Source: Actinomycetospora termitidis (GTDB lineage: Bacteria; Actinomycetota; Actinomycetes; Mycobacteriales; Pseudonocardiaceae). From it: DNA of 64,000 nt. Position numbers and translations under genes: made by a program. Positions 48,903 through 64,000 of this stretch are shown one piece after another. The stretch covers positions 124,001 through 188,000 of the forward strand of contig NZ_JASVWF010000004.1 of NCBI RefSeq assembly GCF_030286555.1. Direction: 5' to 3'. The notes under the pieces were generated by a model that was not told where the DNA came from, did not search any database, and was given only the letters and a program-made list of their open reading frames with translations. Position 1 is the first letter of the stretch. Each line of letters opens with the position of its first letter.

Positions 48903-50210
48903 GTGGTGCGAGCGGTCGTCCTGACGGGCGTCCTGCTGCTCGCGCTCGCGACGCCGGCCGCCGCGCAGACCACCCCGCCCCCGGCGCCTCCGGGCGGGCC
49001 GGCCGCCGAGGTCGGCCGCCTCGTCGGGCAGCTCTCCACCCTGCAGACTCGCCTGGACGACCTCGCCGCCACGGCCGGGCACCGTCGGGAGCTCGCCAAC
49101 CGGGCCGTGGCGGACGAGACCGCCGCTCAGGCGCGGGTGCAGCAGACGCGCGGCGACGCGGACACCGCCCGCGCCGACGCGGCGCGCATCGCGGGCGAGG
49201 CCGAGCAGGCCCGGGCCCGGGTCGACGCCTGGGTGGCCGCGCAGTTCCAGCAGGCCGACGCCGCGAGCGTCGCCGCCGCGCTCGCCGGGACGAACGGGCC
49301 GAACGACGTCGCCGACCGGCTGCAGCTGCAGGGGATCATCACCGCGGAGCAGACCGAGGCCCTCGACGGCTACGAGCGGGCCCGCGTGGACGCCGCCAAC
49401 GCCGACTCGCGCGCCCGGAAGGCCGCGGCGGACGCGGAGTCGGCCGCCGCCACCGCGGCGACCGCCGCGAGCACCGCCCGCGACCAGCTCGCCGCGGCCC
49501 AGTCCGCCGTCACCGACCAGCAACAGCGGATCGCCGCGGTCAGCGCCCAGCGGGACGCCGCGCAGGCCCGGCTGGCGACCCTCGAGGCCTCCGACGCCGC
49601 CCTCGCCGCCCAGCGACGACGGGCCGAGGCGGCGCAGGCCGACCAGGACCGGGCGCGCGATGCCGCCGATGCCGCCCGGAAGGCGGCCGCGCAGCAGCGG
49701 CTCGCCCGGGCCCCCGCGGTGACCACCCCGGACCCGACCCCGCCCACCGGCACCGCCCCGTCGACGGGAACGGGGAGCGCGCCGTCCGACCCGGTCGAGA
49801 TCGTCATCGACCGGGCGCTCTCCGAGCTCGGGACGACGTACGCCTGGGGTGGCGGGGACGGCGACGGCCCGACGCGCGGGGTGCGCGACGGTGGCACCGC
49901 GGACGCCTTCGGCGACTTCGACAAGGTCGGGTTCGACTGCTCGGGGCTGATGATCTACGCGTTCGCGGGGGTCGGGAAGGCGTTGCCGCACTACTCGGGC
50001 TACCAGGCCGAGGCGGGGCGGAAGGTCCCGCTCGACGACCGCCGACCGGGCGACATGCTGTTCTGGGCGGACTCCGACGGCATCCACCACGTCGCGCTCT
50101 ACCTCGGCGACGACCAGATGGTCGAGGCACCGGAGTCGGGCAAGGTCGTGCGGGTGACCTCGGTGCGGTTCGACGACGAGATCGTCCCGACGGTGACCCG
50201 CCTGCTCTGA
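48903..50210 (+). CDS. Secreted NlpC/P60 peptidoglycan hydrolase, RipA-like
   Basis: D,L-endopeptidase that cuts peptide stems of peptidoglycan during division. The product is 435 residues: a signal peptide (VVLTGVLLLALATPAAAQ), an Ala/Gln-rich coiled coil of ~220 residues, a Pro/Thr linker and the NlpC/P60 domain. The catalytic cysteine is C346 (VGFDCSGLMIYAF) and the histidine is H396 (IHHVALYLGDD). GGAGGAGG precedes tandem GTG codons at 48903 and 48906. The coiled coil is expected to inhibit or localise the enzyme, as in RipA. Confidence 0.92.
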   Translation: MVRAVVLTGVLLLALATPAAAQTTPPPAPPGGPAAEVGRLVGQLSTLQTRLDDLAATAGHRRELANRAVADETAAQARVQQTRGDADTARADAARIAGEAEQARARVDAWVAAQFQQADAASVAAALAGTNGPNDVADRLQLQGIITAEQTEALDGYERARVDAANADSRARKAAADAESAAATAATAASTARDQLAAAQSAVTDQQQRIAAVSAQRDAAQARLATLEASDAALAAQRRRAEAAQADQDRARDAADAARKAAAQQRLARAPAVTTPDPTPPTGTAPSTGTGSAPSDPVEIVIDRALSELGTTYAWGGGDGDGPTRGVRDGGTADAFGDFDKVGFDCSGLMIYAFAGVGKALPHYSGYQAEAGRKVPLDDRRPGDMLFWADSDGIHHVALYLGDDQMVEAPESGKVVRVTSVRFDDEIVPTVTRLL

Positions 50211-50278
50211 GGAACGGACCAGGGACGGACCACCGCCTCACCTCACGTTGTCGGTGGGGGTGGGTACCGTCACGCACG

Positions 50279-51417
<1,139 letters not shown>

Positions 51418-51421
<4 letters not shown>

Positions 51422-52502
51422 GCTCGGCAGGGAGCGGCACCGGCCCCTCGTGGTGGCCGCGGCTGCTGGGCCGGCTCGGGGTGGCGGCGGAGTCGGATCC
51501 GTCGGAACCTGCCGCGAGCACGCCCGAGCGGGGCGAGCGGCGTCCGGGCGGTCCGGCCGAGCCGCACCCGCCGTCGTTGGCGCCCGGGTCGGCGCACCTC
51601 GAGGCGGCGCTGAAGACCCTCGAGCTAACGGTGCGGCGCCGGCTCGACGGGCTCCTGCAGGGCAACCATCTCGGGCTCGTGCCCGGGCCGGGGTCCGAGG
51701 CGGGGGACGCGCGGGTCTACCAGCCGGGTGACGACGTCCGGCGGATGGACTGGTCGGTCACCGCCCGCACGTCCGAACCGCACATCCGCGAGACGATCGC
51801 CGACCGCGAGCTGGAGACCTGGCTCGTCGTCGACCTCTCGCCAAGTCTCGACTTCGGTACCGGCGGATGCGAGAAGCGCGACCTCGCGGTCGCGGCCTGC
51901 TCGGCGGTGGTGCACCTGACCCGGGGTGGCGGCAACCGGATCGGGGCGGTGGTCGCCAACGGCACCGGCCTGGTCCGCCTCCCCGCCCGCGGGGGCTCCG
52001 CCCACGCGCACGGGCTGATGCGCCGGATCGCCGGTACCCCTCGGGCGCCGGAGGGCACCCGGGGCGACCTGACGGGCGCGCTGGAGGCACTGCGCAACCC
52101 GCCGCGACGGCGGGGCCTGGTGGTCGTCGTCTCGGACTTCCTCGGCGACACCGACTGGAACCGGTCGCTGCGCGGCCTGGCCGTGCGGCACGACGTCCTC
52201 GCGATCGAGGTGGGGGACCTGCGCGACGAGGAGCTGCCCGACGTCGGGACGGTCGTGCTCGCCGATCCGGAGTCGGGGCACTCGCGCGAGGTGACGACCA
52301 CGCCCACCCTGCGCCGCCGCTTCGCCGCCGAGGCCACGGCCCACCGCGAGCGCGTGGCCCAGGCGATCCGCGCCGCCGGGGCCGGGCACCTGCGCCTGCG
52401 GACCGACCGGGACTGGATCGCCGACGTGGTGCGGTTCGTCGTCGCCCGCAAGCGTGGATGGTCGGGTCAGGGCAGCGGAGCGGCGATGCGGGGGAGCGGC
52501 TG

Positions 52503-52503
<1 letters not shown>
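51418..52503 (+). CDS. DUF58 / VWA-like protein
   Basis: A 361-residue MoxR partner. The DUF58 core is GDARVYQPGDDVRRMDWSVT and TWLVVDLSPSLDFGT, with a VWA-like metal-site remnant DLSPS. The first ~60 residues are Pro/Glu-rich and probably disordered. The GTG overlaps the moxR stop (GTGA). These proteins are thought to help MoxR assemble or activate envelope or metalloprotein targets. Confidence 0.9.
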
Positions 52504-54291
<1,788 letters not shown>

Positions 54292-54326
54292 GTGCCTCCG
54301 GCCACCTCACTCGACAAGGAGAATTC

Positions 54327-55094
54327 GTGGGACTGCTCGACGGCAAGCGCATCCTGATCACGGGGATCATCACGGACGCGTCGATCGCGTTCCACGTCGC
54401 GAAGGCGGCGCAGGAGGCGGGCGCGACCGTCGTCGTCACCGCGTTCGGCCGGGTGTCTCTGGTGAAGCGGATCGCGCAGCGCCTGCCCGAGCCCGCGCCG
54501 GTGATCGAGCTCGACGTGCAGAACCAGGAGCACCTCGACGGGCTGGCCGACGCCGTCCGCGAGCACGTCGACGGCCTGGACGGCGTCCTGCACTCGATCG
54601 GCTTCGCCCCCGCCTCGGCGCTGGGGGAGGGGGCGTTCCTGAACGCCCCGTGGTCGGACGTCGCGACCGCCATCGAGGTGTCGGCGTACTCGCTGAAGTC
54701 GCTCGCGGTGGCGTGCAAGCCGCTGATGGGCCGCGGGTCGAGCATCGTCGGGATGGACTTCGACAACCGCGTGGCGTGGCCGGCCTACGACTGGATGGGC
54801 GTCGCCAAGAGCGCTCTCGAGTCGACCACCCGCTACCTCGCGCGGGACCTCGGCCCCGACGGCATCCGGGTCAACCTGGTCGCCGCGGGCCCGCTGAAGA
54901 CGATGGCCGCGAAGTCGATCCCCGGCTTCCAGTCGTTCGAGCAGGCCTGGACCGACCGCGCCCCGCTGGGCTGGGACCTCTCCGACCCGACACCGGTGGC
55001 GAAGACCGCGTGCGCGCTGCTCTCGGACTACATGCCGACCACGACCGGCGAGATGGTCCACGCCGACGGCGGTTTCCACGCGGTCGGCGTCTGA
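54327..55094 (+). CDS. fabI: Enoyl-ACP reductase, InhA type
   Basis: NADH-dependent last reduction of the type II fatty acid cycle. The product is 255 residues. GIITDASIAFHVAKAA is the nucleotide site, S90 sits in HSIGFAP (InhA S94 equivalent), and catalytic Y154 and K161 are in YDWMGVAKSALES. AAGGAGAA precedes the GTG start. The sequence is closest to mycobacterial InhA rather than E. coli FabI, as expected for this synteny block. Confidence 0.95.
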   Translation: MGLLDGKRILITGIITDASIAFHVAKAAQEAGATVVVTAFGRVSLVKRIAQRLPEPAPVIELDVQNQEHLDGLADAVREHVDGLDGVLHSIGFAPASALGEGAFLNAPWSDVATAIEVSAYSLKSLAVACKPLMGRGSSIVGMDFDNRVAWPAYDWMGVAKSALESTTRYLARDLGPDGIRVNLVAAGPLKTMAAKSIPGFQSFEQAWTDRAPLGWDLSDPTPVAKTACALLSDYMPTTTGEMVHADGGFHAVGV

Positions 55095-55114
55095 CCCTTC
55101 CCGACGACGGGTCG
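55095..55114 (+). repeat. 20-base element directly after the fabI stop (copy B)
   Basis: Identical to the 20 bases after the ctaB stop at 7398-7417 and at the same zero distance from the stop codon. Here it is followed at once by a strong hairpin at 55118. Confidence 0.6.
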
Positions 55115-55117
55115 AGA

Positions 55118-55164
55118 GGACCCTCATCGGGCCGCCGGGAGGTCGGCGACCCCGATGAGGGTCC
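55118..55164. terminator. Bidirectional hairpin between fabI and the M50-like gene
   Basis: GGACCCTCATCGGG (55118-55131) pairs perfectly with CCCGATGAGGGTCC (55151-55164); flanking GAG/CTC extends the stem past one mismatch. The loop is about 19 bases. It lies in a convergent gap. Confidence 0.85.
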
Positions 55165-55208
55165 GCTCGTCACGCGTGGCCCCGGCGTCCCGCTGCGCCC
55201 TGCTCCGG

Positions 55209-55913
55209 TCACGCCTGCTCGTTGAACGGCCACACCCCGTCCGGCCACGCCTCGCCGAGGAACAGCAACCGTCCGCCCGCGTAGAGGCAGGCGAGCGCGA
55301 CGATCACCCAGAACGCCTGCCACGCGAGCGCCGGGACCAGGGTCAACGACTGCATCCGTGCGGCGTCGGACGGCGCCTGCCGGCTCATGATCACCGATGC
55401 CCGCACGCCGCCGAGCAGCAGCCACCACACGACCACGATGGCCAGCGCGACCTGCAGCTCGTTGCTTCCCTGCCAGAGCGCCAACACGACCCCGGCGAGA
55501 GCAACAAGGGTGACGACGTTGGCGAGGGCACTGCCGGCGATGACGAAGGTGATCGCGAGGATCACGACGACTCCGGCGAGGACGCCCCAGGCGTTTCCGT
55601 CCGCGAGGACAGCGGCGCCTCCCAGGCCGAGTAGCGGCGGGCCGAGATAGCCCGCAGGTACCACCAGGTAGAGCCCGACACCCCACTCCCCGGTCTTCGA
55701 CTCCGTGTATCCGCCTCCACCATCGGAGAGATGGACTCCACGGAGGCCCCGGAAAGTCAGGACGTTCATCAGGGCATGAGCACCTTCGTGGGTCAGCGTG
55801 GGGATCGACCCGGCCCACGAACCCGTGAACACCACGAGCAGCAGGGCGACGAAGCCGGCGCCGTAGACCACCGGTTCGCCCACGATCGAGACGTCGATCA
55901 GTTCGTCCACCAC
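55209..55913 (-). CDS. M50-like membrane metallopeptidase family protein
   Basis: A 234-residue protein with about six hydrophobic segments. A zinc-site HExxH appears as H42-E43-G-A-H46 (LTHEGAHALMNVLTF), like M50B-type site-2 protease relatives in actinobacteria. A second zinc ligand motif is not obvious, so activity is uncertain. The GTG start at 55913 is divergent from the ferrochelatase gene. Confidence 0.75.
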   Translation of the reverse strand: MVDELIDVSIVGEPVVYGAGFVALLLVVFTGSWAGSIPTLTHEGAHALMNVLTFRGLRGVHLSDGGGGYTESKTGEWGVGLYLVVPAGYLGPPLLGLGGAAVLADGNAWGVLAGVVVILAITFVIAGSALANVVTLVALAGVVLALWQGSNELQVALAIVVVWWLLLGGVRASVIMSRQAPSDAARMQSLTLVPALAWQAFWVIVALACLYAGGRLLFLGEAWPDGVWPFNEQA

Positions 55914-56053
55914 GCCCCCCGCGCTCCGTCGACGAGCCCCCTCGCCGTGCGTAGTCAGAAGATAGATCGACTCACCCGTTCGTGGAGATAGGCCGTTCGG
56001 GGCAGTTCGCGATCACAGGTGGCGGGCACCGCGAGACGGGGAACGATGAAGGG

Positions 56054-57124
56054 GTGAGCACCACCCCGTACGACGCCGTCCTCGTCCTGTCCTTCGGTGG
56101 CCCCGAGGCCCCGGAGGAGGTCCGCCCCTTCCTGGAGAACGTCACCCGTGGGCGCGGCGTCCCGCCGGAGCGGCTGGACGCGGTCGAGGAGCACTACCAG
56201 CACTTCGGCGGGGTCAGTCCGATCAACGCCCTCAACCGGGAGCTGATCGCGGCGTTGCGTCGGGAGCTCACGGCGGCGGGACTCGATCTGCCGGTCTACT
56301 TCGGCAACCGCAACTGGCACCCGTTCGCCGAGGACACCGTCACCGAGATGGCCCGGGACGGCGTGACGAACGCGTTGGTCTTCGCGACCAGCGCCTACGG
56401 CGGCTACTCGGCCTGCCGGCAGTACCACGAGGACGTCGCGCGAGCCCGCGAGGCGTGCATCGAGCGCACCGGCGGCGCCCCGGACCTGACGAAGCTCCGG
56501 CACTTCTACGACCACCCGCTGTTCGTCGAGTCCGTGGCCGACGGCGTCCGGGCCGCCCGGGAGAAGCTGGACGCGGGGCACGACGCCCGGCTGGTGTTCA
56601 CGGCCCACTCGATCCCGGTCTCCGCCGACGAGACGGCCGGGTTGCCCTCGGAGGGCGGGCACCGCTACTCACGGCAGATGAGCGAGGCGGCGCAGCTCGT
56701 GGCGGACGCGGTCGGGGCCGAGGACCACGACCTCGTCTGGCAGTCCCGCTCCGGCCCCCCGCAGATCCCGTGGCTGGAGCCGGACATCGTCGACCACCTG
56801 GACACGCTGCACGAGAAGGGCGTACCCGCCGTCGTCGTGAGCCCGGTCGGGTTCGTCTCCGACCACCTCGAGGTCGTCTGGGACCTCGACAACGAGGCCT
56901 CCGAGCACGCCGGCGAGATCGGCATGGGCTTCGCCCGGGCGGCCAGCGCCGGGTCGGACCCGCGGTTCGTGCGGATGATCGTCGAGCTGATCACCGAGCA
57001 GGTCGCCGACGCCGCCCCGCGCGCCCTCGGCACGGCCCCGCGCGCCGGGGTCGGCTGCAACGGGAACCTGTGCGCCCCGGGGTGCTGCGAACCGCCGGCT
57101 CGGCGCCGCCCTGCGTCCTCCTGA
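56054..57124 (+). CDS. hemH: Ferrochelatase (coproporphyrin type, [2Fe-2S] class)
   Basis: Inserts iron into the porphyrin in heme synthesis; actinobacterial enzymes use coproporphyrin III (CpfC). The product is 356 residues, with VLSFGGPEAPEEVRPFLENV at the N-terminus and FTAHSIP carrying a conserved histidine. The C-terminus has CNGNLCAPGCCEPP (C335, C340, C344, C345), as needed for a [2Fe-2S] cluster together with an internal cysteine (C121 or C135). The GTG at 56054 is chosen because homologues start just before YDAVLVLSFGG. It complements ctaA and ctaB here. Confidence 0.93.
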   Translation: MSTTPYDAVLVLSFGGPEAPEEVRPFLENVTRGRGVPPERLDAVEEHYQHFGGVSPINALNRELIAALRRELTAAGLDLPVYFGNRNWHPFAEDTVTEMARDGVTNALVFATSAYGGYSACRQYHEDVARAREACIERTGGAPDLTKLRHFYDHPLFVESVADGVRAAREKLDAGHDARLVFTAHSIPVSADETAGLPSEGGHRYSRQMSEAAQLVADAVGAEDHDLVWQSRSGPPQIPWLEPDIVDHLDTLHEKGVPAVVVSPVGFVSDHLEVVWDLDNEASEHAGEIGMGFARAASAGSDPRFVRMIVELITEQVADAAPRALGTAPRAGVGCNGNLCAPGCCEPPARRRPASS

Positions 57125-57129
57125 GCGGC

Positions 57130-57177
57130 ACGAACGGGTCGTTCGTCACGCAAGAAGGTGACGAACGGCCCGTTCGT
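57130..57177. terminator. Bidirectional hairpin after the ferrochelatase gene
   Basis: Bases 57130-57149 (starting ACGAACGGGTCGTTCG) pair with 57158-57177 over 20 bp with a single T-G wobble, around an 8-base loop. It lies 6 bp after the hemH stop in a convergent gap and shares the ACGAACGG base with the hairpins at 19645 and 45630. Confidence 0.88.
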
Positions 57178-57205
57178 ACGAAACGAGGGGCGGGGCCGGA
57201 GCCGA

Positions 57206-57997
57206 TCAGGCCGCCGACAGCACCCGCACGGTCTCGGCCACGGCCGCCACACGCGCCGCCCGGACCGCCGTGGCCAGCGGGCGCAGGGCGTCAGTGCGGG
57301 CCAGCGCGGCCCCTGACGTCAGCGCGCCGCCCGGATCGTCTCCGGAGGCCGCGACGAGGATCGCCTCCACCTCGTCGGCGTGCTGCAGCACCCGCAGCGG
57401 CCGTCCTGGGGTCCCGCTCGGCCACGTCGGCTGCGGACGACGGCGCAGCGTCGCCGCGATCTCCTCCCGCACCCCGGCCCGGGGCCAGGCGACGTCCATC
57501 GCCGCCAGCGTCGAGGCGGCGTCGCGCACGCCCGAGCGCAGGTCGGCCTCGGCGTCCGGCAGCGACGGGTGGGCCTGCGGGGGCACGGTGTCCACCTCGA
57601 ACGCCGTCCACCGCAGCACCCCGTCGGCGACGACCGACGGCACCACCGCGAGCCCGGCCCCTGCGAACACCGCGCACTCGCCGACCTCCAGGGCCGCCGT
57701 GCGCAACGCGTCCGGGCCGGGCAGACCGCGCACGTCCCCGGGCGCCGGCAGGACCACCCGGGCGTCGAGGCCGAGCGGTCCGCACCGCTGCCGCAGCAGC
57801 ACCAGCAGGGCTCCGAGCGCCGAGCCGGCGTGGTCGGGGGTCGGCAGGTCGGTGGCCGCGGCCACGCCGATGTCGGCCGCCACCACGTCGTGCGCCTCCG
57901 ACCACGGGGTCAGGGCGTCGAGGACGTCGTCGGCCGCCGCGGCGCCGGCGACCCACGCCGCGCTCCACACCGCCAGGGACGCGCTCGCTGCAGGCAT
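57206..57997 (-). CDS. Conserved actinobacterial hypothetical protein
   Basis: A 263-residue Ala-rich, mostly soluble protein (SLAVWSAAWVAGAAAADDVL, later AALEVGECAVFAGAGLAVVP). No catalytic motif recognised. It lies tail-to-tail with the ferrochelatase gene as Rv1486c does in M. tuberculosis, and its size is similar. Function unknown. Confidence 0.8.
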   Translation of the reverse strand: MPAASASLAVWSAAWVAGAAAADDVLDALTPWSEAHDVVAADIGVAAATDLPTPDHAGSALGALLVLLRQRCGPLGLDARVVLPAPGDVRGLPGPDALRTAALEVGECAVFAGAGLAVVPSVVADGVLRWTAFEVDTVPPQAHPSLPDAEADLRSGVRDAASTLAAMDVAWPRAGVREEIAATLRRRPQPTWPSGTPGRPLRVLQHADEVEAILVAASGDDPGGALTSGAALARTDALRPLATAVRAARVAAVAETVRVLSAA

Positions 57998-58016
57998 CCC
58001 TCCAGGCTAACGATCC

Positions 58017-59864
58017 TCAGAAGTTGGAGATCACGTCGTTGAACACCTTCCGGAGGGTCGACGGGTCCCGGGCGTCGTAGGCGTAGCCGCCCGAGCTCAG
58101 GGCGATCTGGTCGAGCTTCGCGTACCCGCCGTCCTCGCTCCCGGCGTCCGGGCTGTAGGCGATCGCGAACAGGCGCGTCGGACGGGTGGGGTCGGACGCG
58201 ACGGCGCGCATGGTCTCTGCGACGGCGTCCGGGCGGGTGTCGTCGGTCTCCTCGCCGTCGGTCAGCAGTACGAGGGCGTTGATCCGTCCGGGGTCCGCGG
58301 TGCTCCGGATCTGCGTGATGGCGTCGCGGGCGGTCCGGTAGATCGCGGTGTTCCCGGTCGGGACGAAGTCCGGCGGGAACGCCCGCGCGACGATGTCGGC
58401 CGGCGTGTTCCCCGACCCCGGTGGTCCCACCGTCGTCGGTGGGGCCGGGCGGTAGGGCGGCGACCCGGAGCTGAAGGTCCACACGCCGAGGGTGTCGCCC
58501 GGCCGCAGCCGGGCGAGCGCCCCCGCCGCCTGCTGCTGCACGGCCTCCAGGCGGGACTGGCCGTCCTTCGGGCAGGCCTCCTGCCGCGCGGGTGCGACGG
58601 GCGGGATCCAGGAGGCCTCGCAGGCCATCGACCCGGAGGTGTCGACGGCCAGCGTGAGGTTGGCGGGCTTGCGCAGTCGCGTCGACCAGAGGTCGACGGC
58701 CCGGGTCACGACCTCCGCGGACGGGACCGGGAGCGTCGGGCCTCCCTCCTCCGCCGGGTGCGTGGTGCGCTCCAGGGCGGGGTCGGCACTCCCGTCGCTG
58801 CCCCGGAACCCGTTGGCCCGCAGCTCGTCCTGCTGAGCGGGTTCACCGAACCAGGAGCGCAGGTCGTCCGCCGCGGCCCGGGTCTCCGCCGAGGTCTCCG
58901 GCCAGCCGAGGGTGACCCAGGGGTTGTCGGAGACGAAGGTCCCGTCCCGAGGGACGAACGAGACGAGCTGTTCGGCCGGGGCCGTCGCGCCCACCGGTGC
59001 GGGCACGTCGGCCTCCGGGTTGCCCCGGTTGTAGTCCCACACCGCCTTCTCCTGCACGGCGATGGCGCCGACGTAGGCGGACGGGCTGCCCCGCTTGACG
59101 GCGGCGTCGGCCATGTTCCGCAGGAACTCCTGCTCGGTGTTCCCGTAGTGGACGACGCCGCTCTCGATCCGCTGCTCGAGGTCCAGCGCGCGCGGGTCGT
59201 CCATCAGCTCCGGGCGGTCGAGCGCGCCGGGCACGCCCGGGGTCGAGGCGAAGGCGCCGAGCAGGGCGAACAGGCCCGGGGTGGACAGTGCGGGGTTGGT
59301 CTTGCCCAGGGTGAACGAGCCGGACGACACGGCCCCGGCGAGGTCCGGCCAGCCGAGCGTCGCGCGTGGCCAGCCGAAGCGCGCGCGGGCGACCGACTCG
59401 GGCACGGCGAGCACCACGCGGTTCTGGGCGATCGACCGGGACGGGTCCACGTCGGTGGGGATCGCCGGGGGCGGGCCCGTGGTCCCGGGCGGAGCCGGCT
59501 CGGTCGTCCGCCTGCGGTTGGCCACCCCGAGCCAGACGCTCGACGACGGCGTCCACACGTCCGGACGCGGGCCGAGGGAGTCGTCCCAGCCGTGGGCGAG
59601 GACGTCGACGGCGATCCCCGACGGCACGCCCACGACGGTCGCGTCCGCGCACCGGCCCGGCTGCCGGTCGTACCGGGCGACCATGCTCTCGACGAGCGCC
59701 GACTTCTCCGTGGACGACGCCACCACGAGGGGTGTGCGCGAGGTGCACGCCGCTCCGCCGCCTCCGGGCCCCGTCGTCGAGGCGTTCCACACCACGACCC
59801 CGGCGACCAGCACGAACACGACGCTCAGGACGAGCGGGGCGAGCCGGCGGACGCGTCCGGACAT
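58017..59864 (-). CDS. Membrane-anchored solute-binding-like / VWA fusion protein
   Basis: A 615-residue protein. One N-terminal helix (LAPLVLSVVFVLVAGVVV) is followed by an extracellular type-2 binding-protein-like region of ~340 residues (PLVVASSTEKSALVESMVAR, DVWTPSSSVWLGVA, FVPRDGTFVSDNPWV). A C-terminal VWA domain has its metal site at D408 (VDTSGSMACEA) and LVLLTDGEETDD. It has no lipobox and no ABC permease nearby. ATG overlaps the upstream gene's stop by one base. Likely a surface sensor or adhesin-like receptor; function unproven. Confidence 0.82.
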   Translation of the reverse strand: MSGRVRRLAPLVLSVVFVLVAGVVVWNASTTGPGGGGAACTSRTPLVVASSTEKSALVESMVARYDRQPGRCADATVVGVPSGIAVDVLAHGWDDSLGPRPDVWTPSSSVWLGVANRRRTTEPAPPGTTGPPPAIPTDVDPSRSIAQNRVVLAVPESVARARFGWPRATLGWPDLAGAVSSGSFTLGKTNPALSTPGLFALLGAFASTPGVPGALDRPELMDDPRALDLEQRIESGVVHYGNTEQEFLRNMADAAVKRGSPSAYVGAIAVQEKAVWDYNRGNPEADVPAPVGATAPAEQLVSFVPRDGTFVSDNPWVTLGWPETSAETRAAADDLRSWFGEPAQQDELRANGFRGSDGSADPALERTTHPAEEGGPTLPVPSAEVVTRAVDLWSTRLRKPANLTLAVDTSGSMACEASWIPPVAPARQEACPKDGQSRLEAVQQQAAGALARLRPGDTLGVWTFSSGSPPYRPAPPTTVGPPGSGNTPADIVARAFPPDFVPTGNTAIYRTARDAITQIRSTADPGRINALVLLTDGEETDDTRPDAVAETMRAVASDPTRPTRLFAIAYSPDAGSEDGGYAKLDQIALSSGGYAYDARDPSTLRKVFNDVISNF

Positions 59865-61225
59865 CACGCGCACCGGTCCGCGGAGTAGCGGAGCCCCAGG
59901 GCCTGGAGGCCGCTGGCGTCGTCGAAGGCCGACAGCAGGTACACGACCTGGCACGGGTCGCCCTGCGGGGTGAAGCCCAACGGACCGGAGGCCCCGTCGT
60001 AGTCGATGTCGGTCGCGGGGTTCTGCCGGAGCAGGGCGACGCACGCGGCGTAGTCCGCGCACTTCTGTCCGCCGCGGGTCACCTGCGGGAGCTGGGTGGC
60101 GATCCTCGCCGGGTCGTCGGTCCCCGCCGCGGCCGCCGCGAGGGAGACGGCGATCACGGCGTCGTAGGCCTGCGCGCCGTGCGTCAGGTCCGCGAGACCG
60201 CCCCGGAACGCCTTGAGCCGCTCGTTGAAGCCCGGGTCGGCCCACGGGACGAAACCCCGGAAACCGGCCAGCCGACCCGGCGCGCCCGGGGAGGCCTGCT
60301 GGGCGAAGGTGTTGAACAGGAAACCCTCGCTGCCGTACATCTTCCGGTTCGCCGGGGTGACGCCCCGGCTCAGGAGGTTGTTGACGAGGCCCGCGACCTC
60401 GGTGAACCCGACGAAGACGATGCCGTCGTACGGCGCCCCCGCGAGCTGACCGGCGATGTCGTTGAAGCGGGGCGCCTCCGGGTCGTAGGTCAGCACCGTC
60501 GTAGGGACCGAGCGCCCCTTCAAGTCCTCGACGATCGAGTCCGACAGGTCGGTCGCGTAGGGCTCGGTGCTCGTCACGACCGCGACGTTGCGGTTGCCGT
60601 CCTCGGCGACCAGGGCGGCGAGCGCCCCGCCCTGCACGTCGTTCGACGACGCCGTGCGGAAGAACAGGCCGCCGTCCGGGGCGTCCGACAGGGCGGAGAG
60701 GGTGCTCGCGGGCGACACCATCACGCGTCCGGCGCCGGTGAGGGCCGGGTAGGCCGCCGACGAGTCCACGGAGGCGGACGGGCCGACGACCGCGTCGGTG
60801 CCCGCGGTCAGCAGCGCCGTCGCCGCCGCGCACGTCGCGCCCGAGCCCGGGACCCCCGAGTCGCGCTGAGTCCCGGGTCCCAGCGGGGCGAGCCCGAGCC
60901 CGGGGACCCCGCCGGCCGCGCTCACGTCCCGGACCGCCATCTCCGTCGCGGCCGTGAGGGCGGGGCCGGTCGCGTCGAGCTCCCGCCCCGTCAGCGGGAC
61001 GATGGTCCCGATCGTCAGGACGCCGTCCACCGGGCTGCGGCCACCGGCCGGTGGCGGGCCGCAGGGGGACGGCGGAGCCGGCGCGACCGAGTCCGGGATC
61101 GGGGTCACGGGGGGCGGGGCGCCGTCCTGGCCGCTCGCGCCCCGCACGACGACCACCGCGACCACGAGGAACACGACGGTCAGGACGACGGGCAGGGCGC
61201 GCCGGAGACGCGCGGCGGTCGACAT
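59864..61225 (-). CDS. Membrane-anchored type-1 periplasmic binding protein
   Basis: A 453-residue protein with an N-terminal helix (ALPVVLTVVFLVVAVVVV), a Pro-rich linker and a Leu/Ile/Val-receptor-like domain: GTIVPLTGRELDATGPALT, AVVGPSASVDSSAAYPAL, FFRTASSNDVQGGALAALV and GFTPQGDPCQVVYLL. Its anchor closely resembles that of the next gene. It lacks a lipobox and any ABC transporter partner, so ligand sensing is more likely than transport. GGAGG lies before the ATG at 61223-61225, 26 bp after the SEDS-PBP gene. Confidence 0.85.
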   Translation of the reverse strand: MSTAARLRRALPVVLTVVFLVVAVVVVRGASGQDGAPPPVTPIPDSVAPAPPSPCGPPPAGGRSPVDGVLTIGTIVPLTGRELDATGPALTAATEMAVRDVSAAGGVPGLGLAPLGPGTQRDSGVPGSGATCAAATALLTAGTDAVVGPSASVDSSAAYPALTGAGRVMVSPASTLSALSDAPDGGLFFRTASSNDVQGGALAALVAEDGNRNVAVVTSTEPYATDLSDSIVEDLKGRSVPTTVLTYDPEAPRFNDIAGQLAGAPYDGIVFVGFTEVAGLVNNLLSRGVTPANRKMYGSEGFLFNTFAQQASPGAPGRLAGFRGFVPWADPGFNERLKAFRGGLADLTHGAQAYDAVIAVSLAAAAAGTDDPARIATQLPQVTRGGQKCADYAACVALLRQNPATDIDYDGASGPLGFTPQGDPCQVVYLLSAFDDASGLQALGLRYSADRCA

Positions 61226-61251
61226 GGTCGGGCCTCCTTCGACGGGACGGT

Positions 61252-63801
61252 TCACGGCAGCAGGGCGGACGGTCGGGCCTCGCCGGGGCAGGTCGGCGGG
61301 ACCGGGGTCAGGACCGGCGGGAGGGCACCGAGCACGCGGGAGCCCGCGTCGACCGCCGTGCCCTCCCGGGCGGCCCCGTGGGCGACGAGCGTGAGGACCC
61401 AGCGGTCGTCGACGATCGCGGTGACCCACGAGTCGGTCGCGCCGCCGGGGACCTGCGCCGTGCCGGTCTTCGCAACGACGTCGTGGCCGGCCGGGGCGAG
61501 GCGGCGGGCGGTGCCCTCGCTGACGGCGCGGGCCATGCCCCCGCGGATCACGTCGGCCACCGGACCGGGCAACGGGCGACCGATCGGCGCCGAGGGTGCC
61601 GTCGGCTCGGGATCGCCGCCCGGACACGTCGCGGCGATCACGGACGGCCAGGGCGTGGTCGTCCCGGCGTTCGCCACGACGGCGGTCGCGAGGGCCACCC
61701 CGAGCACGGTCGAGCGCACCGACTCCTGACCGATGCCGGTCCGCGCGAGGGCTCCCGTCCCCGGGTCGGCGGCGCCGAGGCCGGTGTCCAGCCCCGCCGC
61801 GTCCAGCCCGTCGAGCCGGACCGGGGTGTCGGCGCCGAACCAGGTCCGGGCGACCCGTGCCAGCTCCGGTGCGCCGACCTGCACGGCCTCCCAGCCGAGC
61901 ACGGAGTTGCAGCTGTGGGCGAGGGCGGTCGCGGTGTCCGCCGCCGGGCAGGTGGACCCACCGTCGTTGCCGAGCACGGAGCCGTCGTCGCCGCGGTAGG
62001 CACCGAGCGGTGCGGCGGCCGGGTCGACGCCGGCGAGCAGGGCGGCGGCGGCGGTCACGAGCTTCATCGTCGAGCCCGGCGGACCCTGCCGGGAACGGGC
62101 GCGGGACGGCACCCCGGGCTCGGTCGAGGCCGAGGAGAACAGGCCGGTGACGGCCCCCGTGCGCGCGTCCAGGAGGACCGCCTCCCCGTCGAGCCCCGCC
62201 ACGCCGGCGGCGAGGGCGGCCTGGACCCGGGAGTCGACGGTGGTGACGACGTCGGCGGGGCGGCAGACCGGGTGGAAGAGCCCCGCCAGCACGTCGGCGG
62301 CACCCAGCGCTCCGCCGCAGGTCAGCGTGTCCGCCGCCACCGCCTCCACCCCCCGGTGCGTCCCGTTCCACCGCGCGAACCCCAGGTCCGCGTAGCGCCC
62401 GCCGGCGGGGTAGGTGCGCCCCGCGCCGTCGTCCGCCGCGATCACCCTGCCGTCCGCGGTCCAGATCGTGCCCCGCGGCATGCGGACCTGCTCGGCGTCG
62501 GAGATGGTCCGGGGGCCGACGACCAGCAGGACGGCCGCGGCCACGAGCAGCACGGCGACCCCGCGCACCCCGCCGACCGTCGCCGTCGTCAGGGCGGACG
62601 TGCCCGGGGCGGTCCGCCCCGTGCGGTCCGGGCGGTCCAGCAGGCCGACGACGAGGCCCAGGACCAGCGCCGACGTCGTGAGCGAAGCTCTCGAGAACCC
62701 CAGGAACGGCGCGTTGAGCCCGGTGAGGGGCAGGACCGCGACCGTCCCGAGCGCGTTCCACGCCCCCTGGGCGACCAGGGCAGTCGCGAGGGCCACGGCC
62801 AGGGAGGCCGCCGCGCCGCGCCGGGCGGCCGCGACGCGCACCAGATGGGCCAGGGCCGCCAGCAGGCCGAGCAGGACCGGGACGACGACGAGGGCCCCGA
62901 GGTCGGCGACCAGGGCCGCCACGGCGTAGTCCGACCCGATGGCGGGCACGCCGTCCACCAGCGGGCTGCGGCCGGGGCCCGGGCCGATCAGCCCGCCCGA
63001 CCACGCCGCCGTCAGGGCCGCCCGCAGCTGGTCCCCGGGATCCACGACCTCCAGCGCCCGCCCGCGCACCACCGGCACCGTCGCGAGCAGCGGGATCGCG
63101 ACCACGACGGCGAGCGCTCCCGCGACCACCCACCGGACCGGCAGACCGCGGACGTGCACGACCGCAGCGAGCACCGCCACGACGACGAGCGCGGCGGGGC
63201 CGAGATCGCGGACCACGACCAGGAGCGCGAGGGCACCCGCACCGAGCCCGCCCGCGAGCAGGTGGAACCGCCGGTCGGAGGCCCGCCAGCCCGGTGCCCG
63301 GGAGACCTGCTCCGCGACCGCCAGGGCCGCCCCGCCGACGACGAGCCACCGAGTCAGCTCGCCGACCTGCACCCCGAGCAGCGGGAGGGTGCCCGACGCG
63401 GGTGCCGGCCCCAGGAGGGTGAGCGCGCGCAGGACGAGGCCCGCCGCGAGGGCGGCCAGGGCGGCCAGCCGGCGCGAGGCCGGCCGCTCGAGGCCCCGGC
63501 CGAGCCGGGGCGAGCGACCCACCACGACCCCGGCCGTCAGCAGGACGGACGCCGCGGCCGCGACGAACGCGACCCGCCCGGCCGGCGCACCGAGGCGCAG
63601 CGGGACCAGCGTCCCGAGTGTCGCCGCGAGCAGGGCGGTCCCGACGACGGCGGGGTGGCGGCGGGCCGCGAGGCACGGCGGGACGGCGAGCACGGCGGCG
63701 CCGACGGCCCAGAGGATCGGCTCCGGGCGCGCCGGAGCCGGCAGCAGACCGGCGAGCCCGGCCGCCAGGACGGCCGGGAGCGCCCAGGCGGCGCGCCTCA
63801 T
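61252..63801 (-). CDS. SEDS (FtsW/RodA) polymerase fused to penicillin-binding transpeptidase
   Basis: An 849-residue bifunctional cell-wall synthase candidate. Residues ~1-450 form a multi-helix SEDS domain with VVRDLGPAALVVV (R198-D199), GSDYAVAALVADLG (289-302) and NALGTVAVLPLTGLNAPFLG (from 349), matching FtsW/RodA landmarks. One more helix (VAVLLVAAAVLLVVG) leads to a class B-like PBP part starting PRGTIWTADGRVIAAD. All three transpeptidase motifs are present: S577-TMK580, S630-CN and K778-TGT. The dimerisation region is shorter than in PbpA or FtsI. The ATG overlaps the FHA stop (ATGA). SEDS and PBP are usually separate proteins. Confidence 0.9.
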   Translation of the reverse strand: MRRAAWALPAVLAAGLAGLLPAPARPEPILWAVGAAVLAVPPCLAARRHPAVVGTALLAATLGTLVPLRLGAPAGRVAFVAAAASVLLTAGVVVGRSPRLGRGLERPASRRLAALAALAAGLVLRALTLLGPAPASGTLPLLGVQVGELTRWLVVGGAALAVAEQVSRAPGWRASDRRFHLLAGGLGAGALALLVVVRDLGPAALVVVAVLAAVVHVRGLPVRWVVAGALAVVVAIPLLATVPVVRGRALEVVDPGDQLRAALTAAWSGGLIGPGPGRSPLVDGVPAIGSDYAVAALVADLGALVVVPVLLGLLAALAHLVRVAAARRGAAASLAVALATALVAQGAWNALGTVAVLPLTGLNAPFLGFSRASLTTSALVLGLVVGLLDRPDRTGRTAPGTSALTTATVGGVRGVAVLLVAAAVLLVVGPRTISDAEQVRMPRGTIWTADGRVIAADDGAGRTYPAGGRYADLGFARWNGTHRGVEAVAADTLTCGGALGAADVLAGLFHPVCRPADVVTTVDSRVQAALAAGVAGLDGEAVLLDARTGAVTGLFSSASTEPGVPSRARSRQGPPGSTMKLVTAAAALLAGVDPAAAPLGAYRGDDGSVLGNDGGSTCPAADTATALAHSCNSVLGWEAVQVGAPELARVARTWFGADTPVRLDGLDAAGLDTGLGAADPGTGALARTGIGQESVRSTVLGVALATAVVANAGTTTPWPSVIAATCPGGDPEPTAPSAPIGRPLPGPVADVIRGGMARAVSEGTARRLAPAGHDVVAKTGTAQVPGGATDSWVTAIVDDRWVLTLVAHGAAREGTAVDAGSRVLGALPPVLTPVPPTCPGEARPSALLP

Positions 63802-64000
63802 CGCAGGCTCACCTGCGCCAGGCGCTGCTCGTCGAGCCACACGACGTCGCCCACGGCCAGGGCGGTCGGTGTCCCCGGCGCGAGCAGCTCGGTCTCCCCA
63901 CCGGCCCGCTCGACCCACGTGCCGTTCGCCGAGTGCAGGTCCTCGACCTGGCACGTGCCGCGGACCCAGGTCAGCTCGGCGTGGCGGCGGGAGACCTCGT
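63798..64000 (-). CDS. FHA-domain protein, 5' end cut by window edge
   Basis: C-terminal 66 codons of a forkhead-associated (phosphothreonine-binding) protein. EVSRRHAELTWV and VEDLHSANGTWVER are the classic SRxH and NGT motifs of the FHA core. The stop overlaps the SEDS-PBP start by 4 bp, so the two are co-translated. By analogy with FhaA/FhaB it may be recruited by a Ser/Thr kinase that would lie further upstream, outside the window. Confidence 0.9.
   Translation of the reverse strand, partial: EVSRRHAELTWVRGTCQVEDLHSANGTWVERAGGETELLAPGTPTALAVGDVVWLDEQRLAQVSLR

Follow-up and report, generated by a model that had tools for sequence, protein, structure and literature searches.

A SEDS-class B PBP fusion of Actinomycetospora termitidis as a candidate single-chain peptidoglycan synthase in a signaling cassette

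A gene of Actinomycetospora termitidis, located at 61252..63801 on the minus strand of the 64,000-nucleotide stretch of DNA analyzed here (the window), is very probably a genuine fusion of a SEDS domain and a class B penicillin-binding protein (bPBP), judging from its sequence. The reading of the whole that we favor, and to which we give somewhat better than an even chance, is that it encodes a single-chain peptidoglycan synthase housed in a horizontally acquired phospho-signaling cassette. Most likely, the protein would act as a second wall synthase, one that is inducible and answers to a phospho-signal of its own. SEDS-PBP fusions are already known. The unusual aspects of this one are 2-fold. 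(i) It is set in a small signaling cassette that is absent in sister species. (ii) Its SEDS half has lost a Trp that is thought to be invariant.

The gene is a single uninterrupted frame of 849 codons plus the stop, beginning with an ATG at 63801. A preliminary description of the window had claimed this frame and its division into two domains, both of which hold, although it omitted the strand and overlooked the surrounding kinase/FHA cassette. A codon-usage gene caller gives the frame the top score, 248, among the 12 genes called in 50001-64000. The first half proved in a Pfam search to be of the FtsW/RodA type, as claimed. FTSW_RODA_SPOVE (PF01098) matches residues 160-386 with 52.6 bits (cut-off, 26.4) over profile positions 114-349 of 356, leaving the first third of the profile unmatched. 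The SEDS-like membrane domain, which we cut at residues 1-405, corresponds to 62587..63801 (minus strand). It is followed by a hydrophobic segment, residues 411-429 (62515..62571, minus strand), which by Kyte-Doolittle hydropathy is the probable transmembrane link to the PBP domain and agrees with the extra joining helix described earlier. Ten hydropathy segments precede the link, a rough count by a method that gives nine for E. coli RodA, and one further segment inside the transpeptidase domain is probably false. The Transpeptidase match itself spans residues 541-806 (61384..62181, minus strand; 69.2 bits, curated cut-off 22.1), and all three of the PBP motifs named in the preliminary description are present: STMK at 577 with the active Ser577, SCN at 630-632, and KTGT at 778-781. 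A class A PBP is ruled out, as Pfam finds no GT51 glycosyltransferase match.

The PBP dimerization region had been called unusually short, and it is: 148 residues separate the link segment from the active Ser. The same gap measures 194 to 207 residues in three PbpA proteins, 269 in the bacterium's own FtsI, and 291 in E. coli PBP2. Yet this length is typical (140 to 168) of six related proteins referred to here as cassette fusions, namely, those of the window, a Herbiconiux plasmid, two Rhodococcus plasmids, and two genomes, G538 and G301. Pfam finds neither PBP_dimer nor PBP_dimer_2 in the window fusion; PBP_dimer_2 is matched in the Herbiconiux homolog. A profile made from the six sequences aligns with residues 17-460 of 462 of PDB 3un7, "Penicillin-binding protein A." The PBP half also aligns with PDB chains named "Peptidoglycan glycosyltransferase" (4mnr and 4jbf among them), which presumably come from RodA-PbpA fusions of Coriobacteriia of the operon-borne kind described below. 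Could the joined frame be an accident? A frameshift or stop between the domains is ruled out in the given sequence, which reads through without interruption and matches a full-length homolog on both sides of the junction. The fused frame is also conserved, since the plasmid homolog from Herbiconiux matches over its full length (33% over 793 amino acids, E=1e-62), and this conservation speaks against an assembly accident.

Is the SEDS half equipped to polymerize? In an alignment with E. coli RodA, six positions carry the same residue, with Gln111, Glu114, Asp159, Arg210, Pro257, and Asp262 of RodA corresponding to Q145, E148, D199, R248, P286, and D291 of the window fusion. The last of these, Asp291 (62929..62931, minus strand), aligns with the residue that is catalytic in E. 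coli RodA (PMC10449877). Lys117 of RodA is replaced by Arg151. The catalytic Asp is conserved in all six cassette fusions, although overall the other five are only 26 to 38% identical to the window protein, and on the transpeptidase side, Ser577/Lys580, Ser630/Asn632, and Lys778/Gly780/Thr781 are invariant in all six. What about the Trp of periplasmic loop 2? According to PMC10449877, this residue (E. coli Trp102) is invariant in all species analyzed there and is suggested to serve processivity, and its exchange for Ala lowered the activity of E. coli RodA-PBP2. Its equivalent is missing in four of the six cassette fusions (window, Herbiconiux, G538, and G301); the alignment of the loop contains gaps, and these four proteins have no Trp anywhere in it. 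It is kept in both Rhodococcus fusions, in five MreB-linked fusions (described below), and in the 11 canonical RodA/FtsW proteins aligned. Because this Trp is absent, we refer to the domain as SEDS-like and divergent, with the catalytic Asp of SEDS proteins retained. Such a divergent domain, having lost Trp102 and exchanged Lys117 for Arg, may be weak, nonprocessive, or dead. The earlier proposal of a single-chain SEDS-bPBP synthase fits the sequence with a reservation, as the SEDS half lacks a residue called invariant in PMC10449877.

The fusion is one of six genes in the cassette, which encodes a Ser/Thr kinase, a 241-amino-acid protein, an FHA protein, the fusion, and two anchored binding proteins. 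By gene calls and Pfam, the FHA-domain protein has one hydrophobic segment, and the 3' part of its gene lies at 63798..64000 (minus strand; to 64898 if the first ATG is used). It overlaps the start of the fusion by 4 bases, both in the window and on both Rhodococcus plasmids. On the other side of the fusion, also on the minus strand, lie a periplasmic-binding-protein-like gene (Peripla_BP_6; 59864..61225) and a gene for a solute-binding and von Willebrand A protein (58017..59864), each product having an N-terminal hydrophobic anchor. Beyond the window, on the plus strand, are the gene for the 241-amino-acid protein, which has no family, and that for the kinase, which has one C-terminal hydrophobic segment. 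The 241-amino-acid protein (L011:8897-9622, between the FHA and kinase genes) has no match in Pfam or PADLOC and no similarity to a neighbor of the fusion in G538 with which it was compared.

Comparison with congeners places the cassette in an extra segment of about 9.24 kb (L011 2011-11249), of which 58011..64000 falls in the window, while the right end, at 67249, is outside it. The genus sample numbered 18 genomes: the bacterium's own, 15 that were compared at the site, and two incomplete ones with no DUF3097 match. The flanking genes, encoding a 254-amino-acid protein and DUF3097, are adjacent in all 15 congener regions with no gene called between them, and in one (L033) only 3 bases separate the aligned flanks. 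Gain in A. termitidis would be a simpler reading than loss in its congeners. The GC content is 76.5% in the segment and 75.3 to 75.4% in the flanks, so that its composition matches the genome, and no integrase, tRNA, target-site duplication, or terminal repeat was found at the segment ends; both points weigh against the reading that we favor. Elsewhere in the window, a gene run at 50279-53471 presumably encodes, by the look of the translations, a MoxR-type ATPase, a DUF58-like protein, and a VWA membrane protein; genes resembling this run are present in many congener regions.

The genome contains three SEDS matches, with 368.6, 290.9, and, for the fusion, 54.7 bits, a low score that marks its SEDS half as very divergent, and seven transpeptidase matches. 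The two strongest SEDS proteins are taken as FtsW and RodA on the basis of score and gene order. Genes in the canonical order FHA-FHA-PP2C-rodA-pbpA-kinase-kinase lie on another contig, with names assigned by similarity and order and in part presumed. As the other two SEDS matches score far higher and one canonical operon of the rodA-pbpA type is already present, the fusion is an extra copy and presumably an additional synthase. A canonical RodA-PbpA ortholog would group with the RodA/PbpA proteins of the class and lie with them in the kinase operon, whereas the fusion forms a separate group in the trees discussed below and the canonical-type pair is located elsewhere in the genome.

How widespread are relatives of the fusion? 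Full-length matches are rare in the genome samples, which overlap and whose search may miss weak cases in its first pass. Among 61 relatives (E 1e-20), only the bacterium's own genome has one, and none occurs in the other 60. The same holds for 200 genomes of the family (1e-18), in which nine others match the transpeptidase part alone, and for 246 genomes of the class (1e-20). The 200 genomes of the order (1e-40) yield the own protein and that of G538. A larger class sample of 394 genomes gave matches in 313; among the matches listed, only the own genome and G301 are full length, and nearly all others match through the PBP half. Plasmids add the Herbiconiux homolog, found in two records with the same protein, and three Rhodococcus records, two of which represent one and the same plasmid of R. 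fascians D188. No relative turned up in a single scan of viral contigs, and 11 phage records have a match, of which the 10 listed involve the PBP half only; a phage or viral origin is rejected on these grounds. Single scans of a collection of genome contigs found nothing with the fusion or with the solute-binding/VWA protein.

The neighbors of the cassette fusions are recurrent and variable at once. The Herbiconiux fusion is accompanied by genes for NYN, PP2C, a DO-GTPase2-like protein below the cut-off, and, about 7 kb away, an FHA protein known from the record's annotation. On this plasmid (NZ_CP139147.1), the cassette region of about 20 kb lies between two modules (L046:1871-5855 and L047:20499-24483), as in a composite element; the modules comprise integrase, HTH, ArsR, and cation-transporter genes, and the protein accessions are the same in both copies. 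The Rhodococcus plasmid fusions have NYN, DUF4407 (with a kinase domain in pFiD188), and PP2C genes nearby and an FHA gene directly before the fusion. The order in G538 is PP2C, GTPase-like (below the cut-off), FHA, and fusion. In G301, it is kinase, DO-GTPase2 (above the cut-off), an 866-amino-acid protein without a family name, and fusion, and there is no FHA gene within the stretch examined around it. In all, at least one of kinase, PP2C, and FHA is near each of the six cassette fusions, FHA being found in five and PP2C in four. Since the partner genes vary among these relatives, no fixed regulatory partner is proven. A literature search of open-license papers found no description of a kinase/FHA/fusion cassette.

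Fusions of the same two domains outside this group turned up when the architecture was sought in other genomes, as the preliminary description had proposed. In a sample of 396 genomes of the phylum, 90 match at E 1e-66, and besides the own genome, 35 match both domains without an internal stop, although one of these matches extends no further than profile position 684. These 35 belong to four families (12, 12, 9, and 2 genomes). A further 13 full-length matches have internal stops and were left out of the count, and the rest of the 90 are partial. The fused architecture is thus not the novelty, because it occurs in 35 of the 396 sampled genomes and natural fusions are mentioned in print (PMC10449877). 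Twelve of the regions were inspected. All seven without stops contain a single frame in the order fhaA-fhaB-PP2C-fusion-kinase (L108, L109, L110, L112, L113, L115, and L117), and all five with internal stops contain separate, adjacent rodA and pbpA genes. The place of these operon-borne fusions suggests that they are housekeeping copies. Another kind of SEDS-PBP fusion, of about 1,000 amino acids, is found in eight of 17 congeners (L014-L021; e.g., L018:4410-9092). PBP_dimer is matched in both of the two that were scanned, seven of the eight have an mreB gene nearby on the contig that carries the fusion, and a small membrane gene lies beside most. MreB is present in exactly those eight of the 18 genus genomes that have this fusion.

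Do all of these fusions share one origin? Trees were made from 29 sequences: six cassette fusions, five of the eight MreB-linked and seven operon-borne fusions, nine canonical proteins, and two others. The cassette fusions form one group, with support of 97/93 for the transpeptidase and 89/84, below the starred level, for the SEDS domain (78/68 in an earlier tree of 22 sequences). In the SEDS tree, the operon-borne fusions group with canonical RodA (100/98), while the MreB-linked fusions group with E. coli RodA (SEDS, 99/96) and with E. coli PBP2 (transpeptidase, 90/92). A joint clade of cassette and operon-borne fusions is rejected for the SEDS domain (p-AU 0.012), whereas the transpeptidase does not reject it (0.12), and for a joint clade of cassette and MreB-linked fusions, the 22-sequence trees give p values of 0.0019 (SEDS) and 0.056 (transpeptidase). 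These results suggest that the SEDS-bPBP fusion arose more than once. As the labels come from gene context and were partly set after the first trees, and as long branches are present, several origins are likely rather than proven.

How might the cassette work? In the reading that we favor, the N-terminal SEDS domain would polymerize lipid II, and a single membrane helix would tether it to the PbpA-type transpeptidase on the outside, which would cross-link the strands. The cassette kinase, together with the PP2C phosphatase in the four of six cassettes that have one, would control the level of a phosphothreonine signal. The reader of this signal would be the FHA protein, which is encoded by the overlapping gene and anchored in the membrane and which would then switch the synthase, while both anchored binding proteins would sense something outside. 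The sequence establishes the gene content, the extra segment, and the conserved residues; horizontal acquisition, both enzyme activities, regulation, sensing, and host benefit are all things that we infer. Among the observations in favor of this reading, kinase, PP2C, and/or FHA genes lie near all six cassette fusions, and the site is empty in all 15 congener regions. The canonical and operon-borne rodA-pbpA loci looked at share this type of operon, and PbpA is a substrate of PknB (PMC3989709).

The same signaling genes can be read in another way. The protein might be a divergent but ordinary RodA-PbpA pair that became fused and plays a routine role in growth or sporulation, its cassette context being incidental. 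The canonical loci looked at do have FHA, PP2C, and kinase genes together with rodA-pbpA, and RodA-PbpA fusions do occur within the usual fha-PP2C-kinase operon in four families of the phylum. We consider this unlikely, because the genome keeps its own canonical rodA-pbpA-type operon and a SEDS gene taken as ftsW, the segment is missing from the site in all 15 congener regions compared, and none of the other 60 relatives searched has a match at E 1e-20 or better. The trees, too, set the window fusion apart from the canonical pair as well as from the operon-borne fusions, even if a joint transpeptidase clade with the latter is not rejected. Improbable to a similar degree is a specialized transpeptidase whose SEDS half no longer polymerizes and has become a membrane anchor or regulator. 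Loss of the Trp102 position in four of six cassette fusions would fit this, given the lowered activity of the E. coli Trp102Ala mutant (PMC10449877), as would the long branches in the SEDS tree. Against it, Asp291 and the five other active-site positions are kept in the window fusion, and the Asp persists in all six proteins despite identities as low as 26 to 38%.

Could the cassette instead serve in biological conflict or stress, with the synthase as an effector that makes or repairs wall when an attack is sensed outside? DO-GTPase systems are defined in PMC7159879, and DO-GTPase2-like genes lie beside some relatives, with 29.0 bits in G301 (cut-off, 27) and, below the cut-off, 21.3 in Herbiconiux and 21.0 in G538; the plasmid location and patchy distribution of the relatives also agree with such a role. 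Still, we rate it as the least probable of these alternatives. The window cassette has no Pfam GTPase match, and membership in a DO-GTPase/GAP1 conflict system is not supported, as no DO-GTPase Pfam match occurs there. The main text of PMC7159879 mentions neither FtsW, RodA, penicillin-binding, nor transpeptidase. The PADLOC match of the kinase (242.7 bits) is nonspecific, being surpassed by the best matches of two kinases from the canonical operon (377 and 646 bits), for which reason a defense kinase of the PD-T4-6 type is rejected.

Beyond the single-chain, signal-controlled synthase that we favor for A. termitidis, a broader and frankly tentative proposal is that a clade of mobile, signal-gated single-chain synthases moves among actinobacteria in kinase/FHA/PP2C cassettes and that part of this clade polymerizes lipid II without the Trp that is proposed to confer processivity. 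If so, short or differently patterned glycan strands might be made on command. In a natural single-chain synthase, polymerase and cross-linker are paired in a fixed way, which is handy for structural work and enzymology, and a version without the Trp would allow a direct test of the part that this residue plays in processivity. A wall synthase that is portable and brings its own kinase and FHA reader would also be a small natural model for the control of actinobacterial wall growth by Ser/Thr phosphorylation.

Among known systems, RodA-PBP2 and FtsW-FtsI have the same two domains, active-site Asp, and Ser/Lys motifs as the window fusion, but they consist of two chains, whereas the window fusion is one chain with a SEDS half devoid of Trp102 and a short PBP stalk. 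In a setting described earlier, pknA and pknB are in an operon with rodA and pbpA, FHA proteins belong to the cluster, and PbpA is the PknB substrate already mentioned (PMC3989709). In C. glutamicum, a SEDS-bPBP can support polar growth, and so can a class A PBP (PMC8262863). Natural single-frame SEDS-PBP fusions are mentioned in a 2023 paper that cites the Rhodococcus RHA1 genome (PMC10449877); like the window fusion, the RHA1 protein, known here from that citation, would combine both activities in one open frame. The two plasmid-borne Rhodococcus fusions belong to the tree group of the window fusion; they keep the Trp that it has lost and adjoin NYN, DUF4407, and PP2C genes. The operon-borne RodA-PbpA fusions resemble it in domain order and signaling neighbors, but they replace rodA-pbpA in the usual operon (seven of seven loci), whereas the window fusion occupies a separate cassette and a separate tree group. 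Finally, the MreB-linked fusion of the congeners also joins SEDS and transpeptidase domains in one chain, yet it differs in its length of about 1,000 amino acids, its PBP_dimer match (in the two of eight scanned), the mreB gene close by, and its grouping with E. coli RodA and PBP2.
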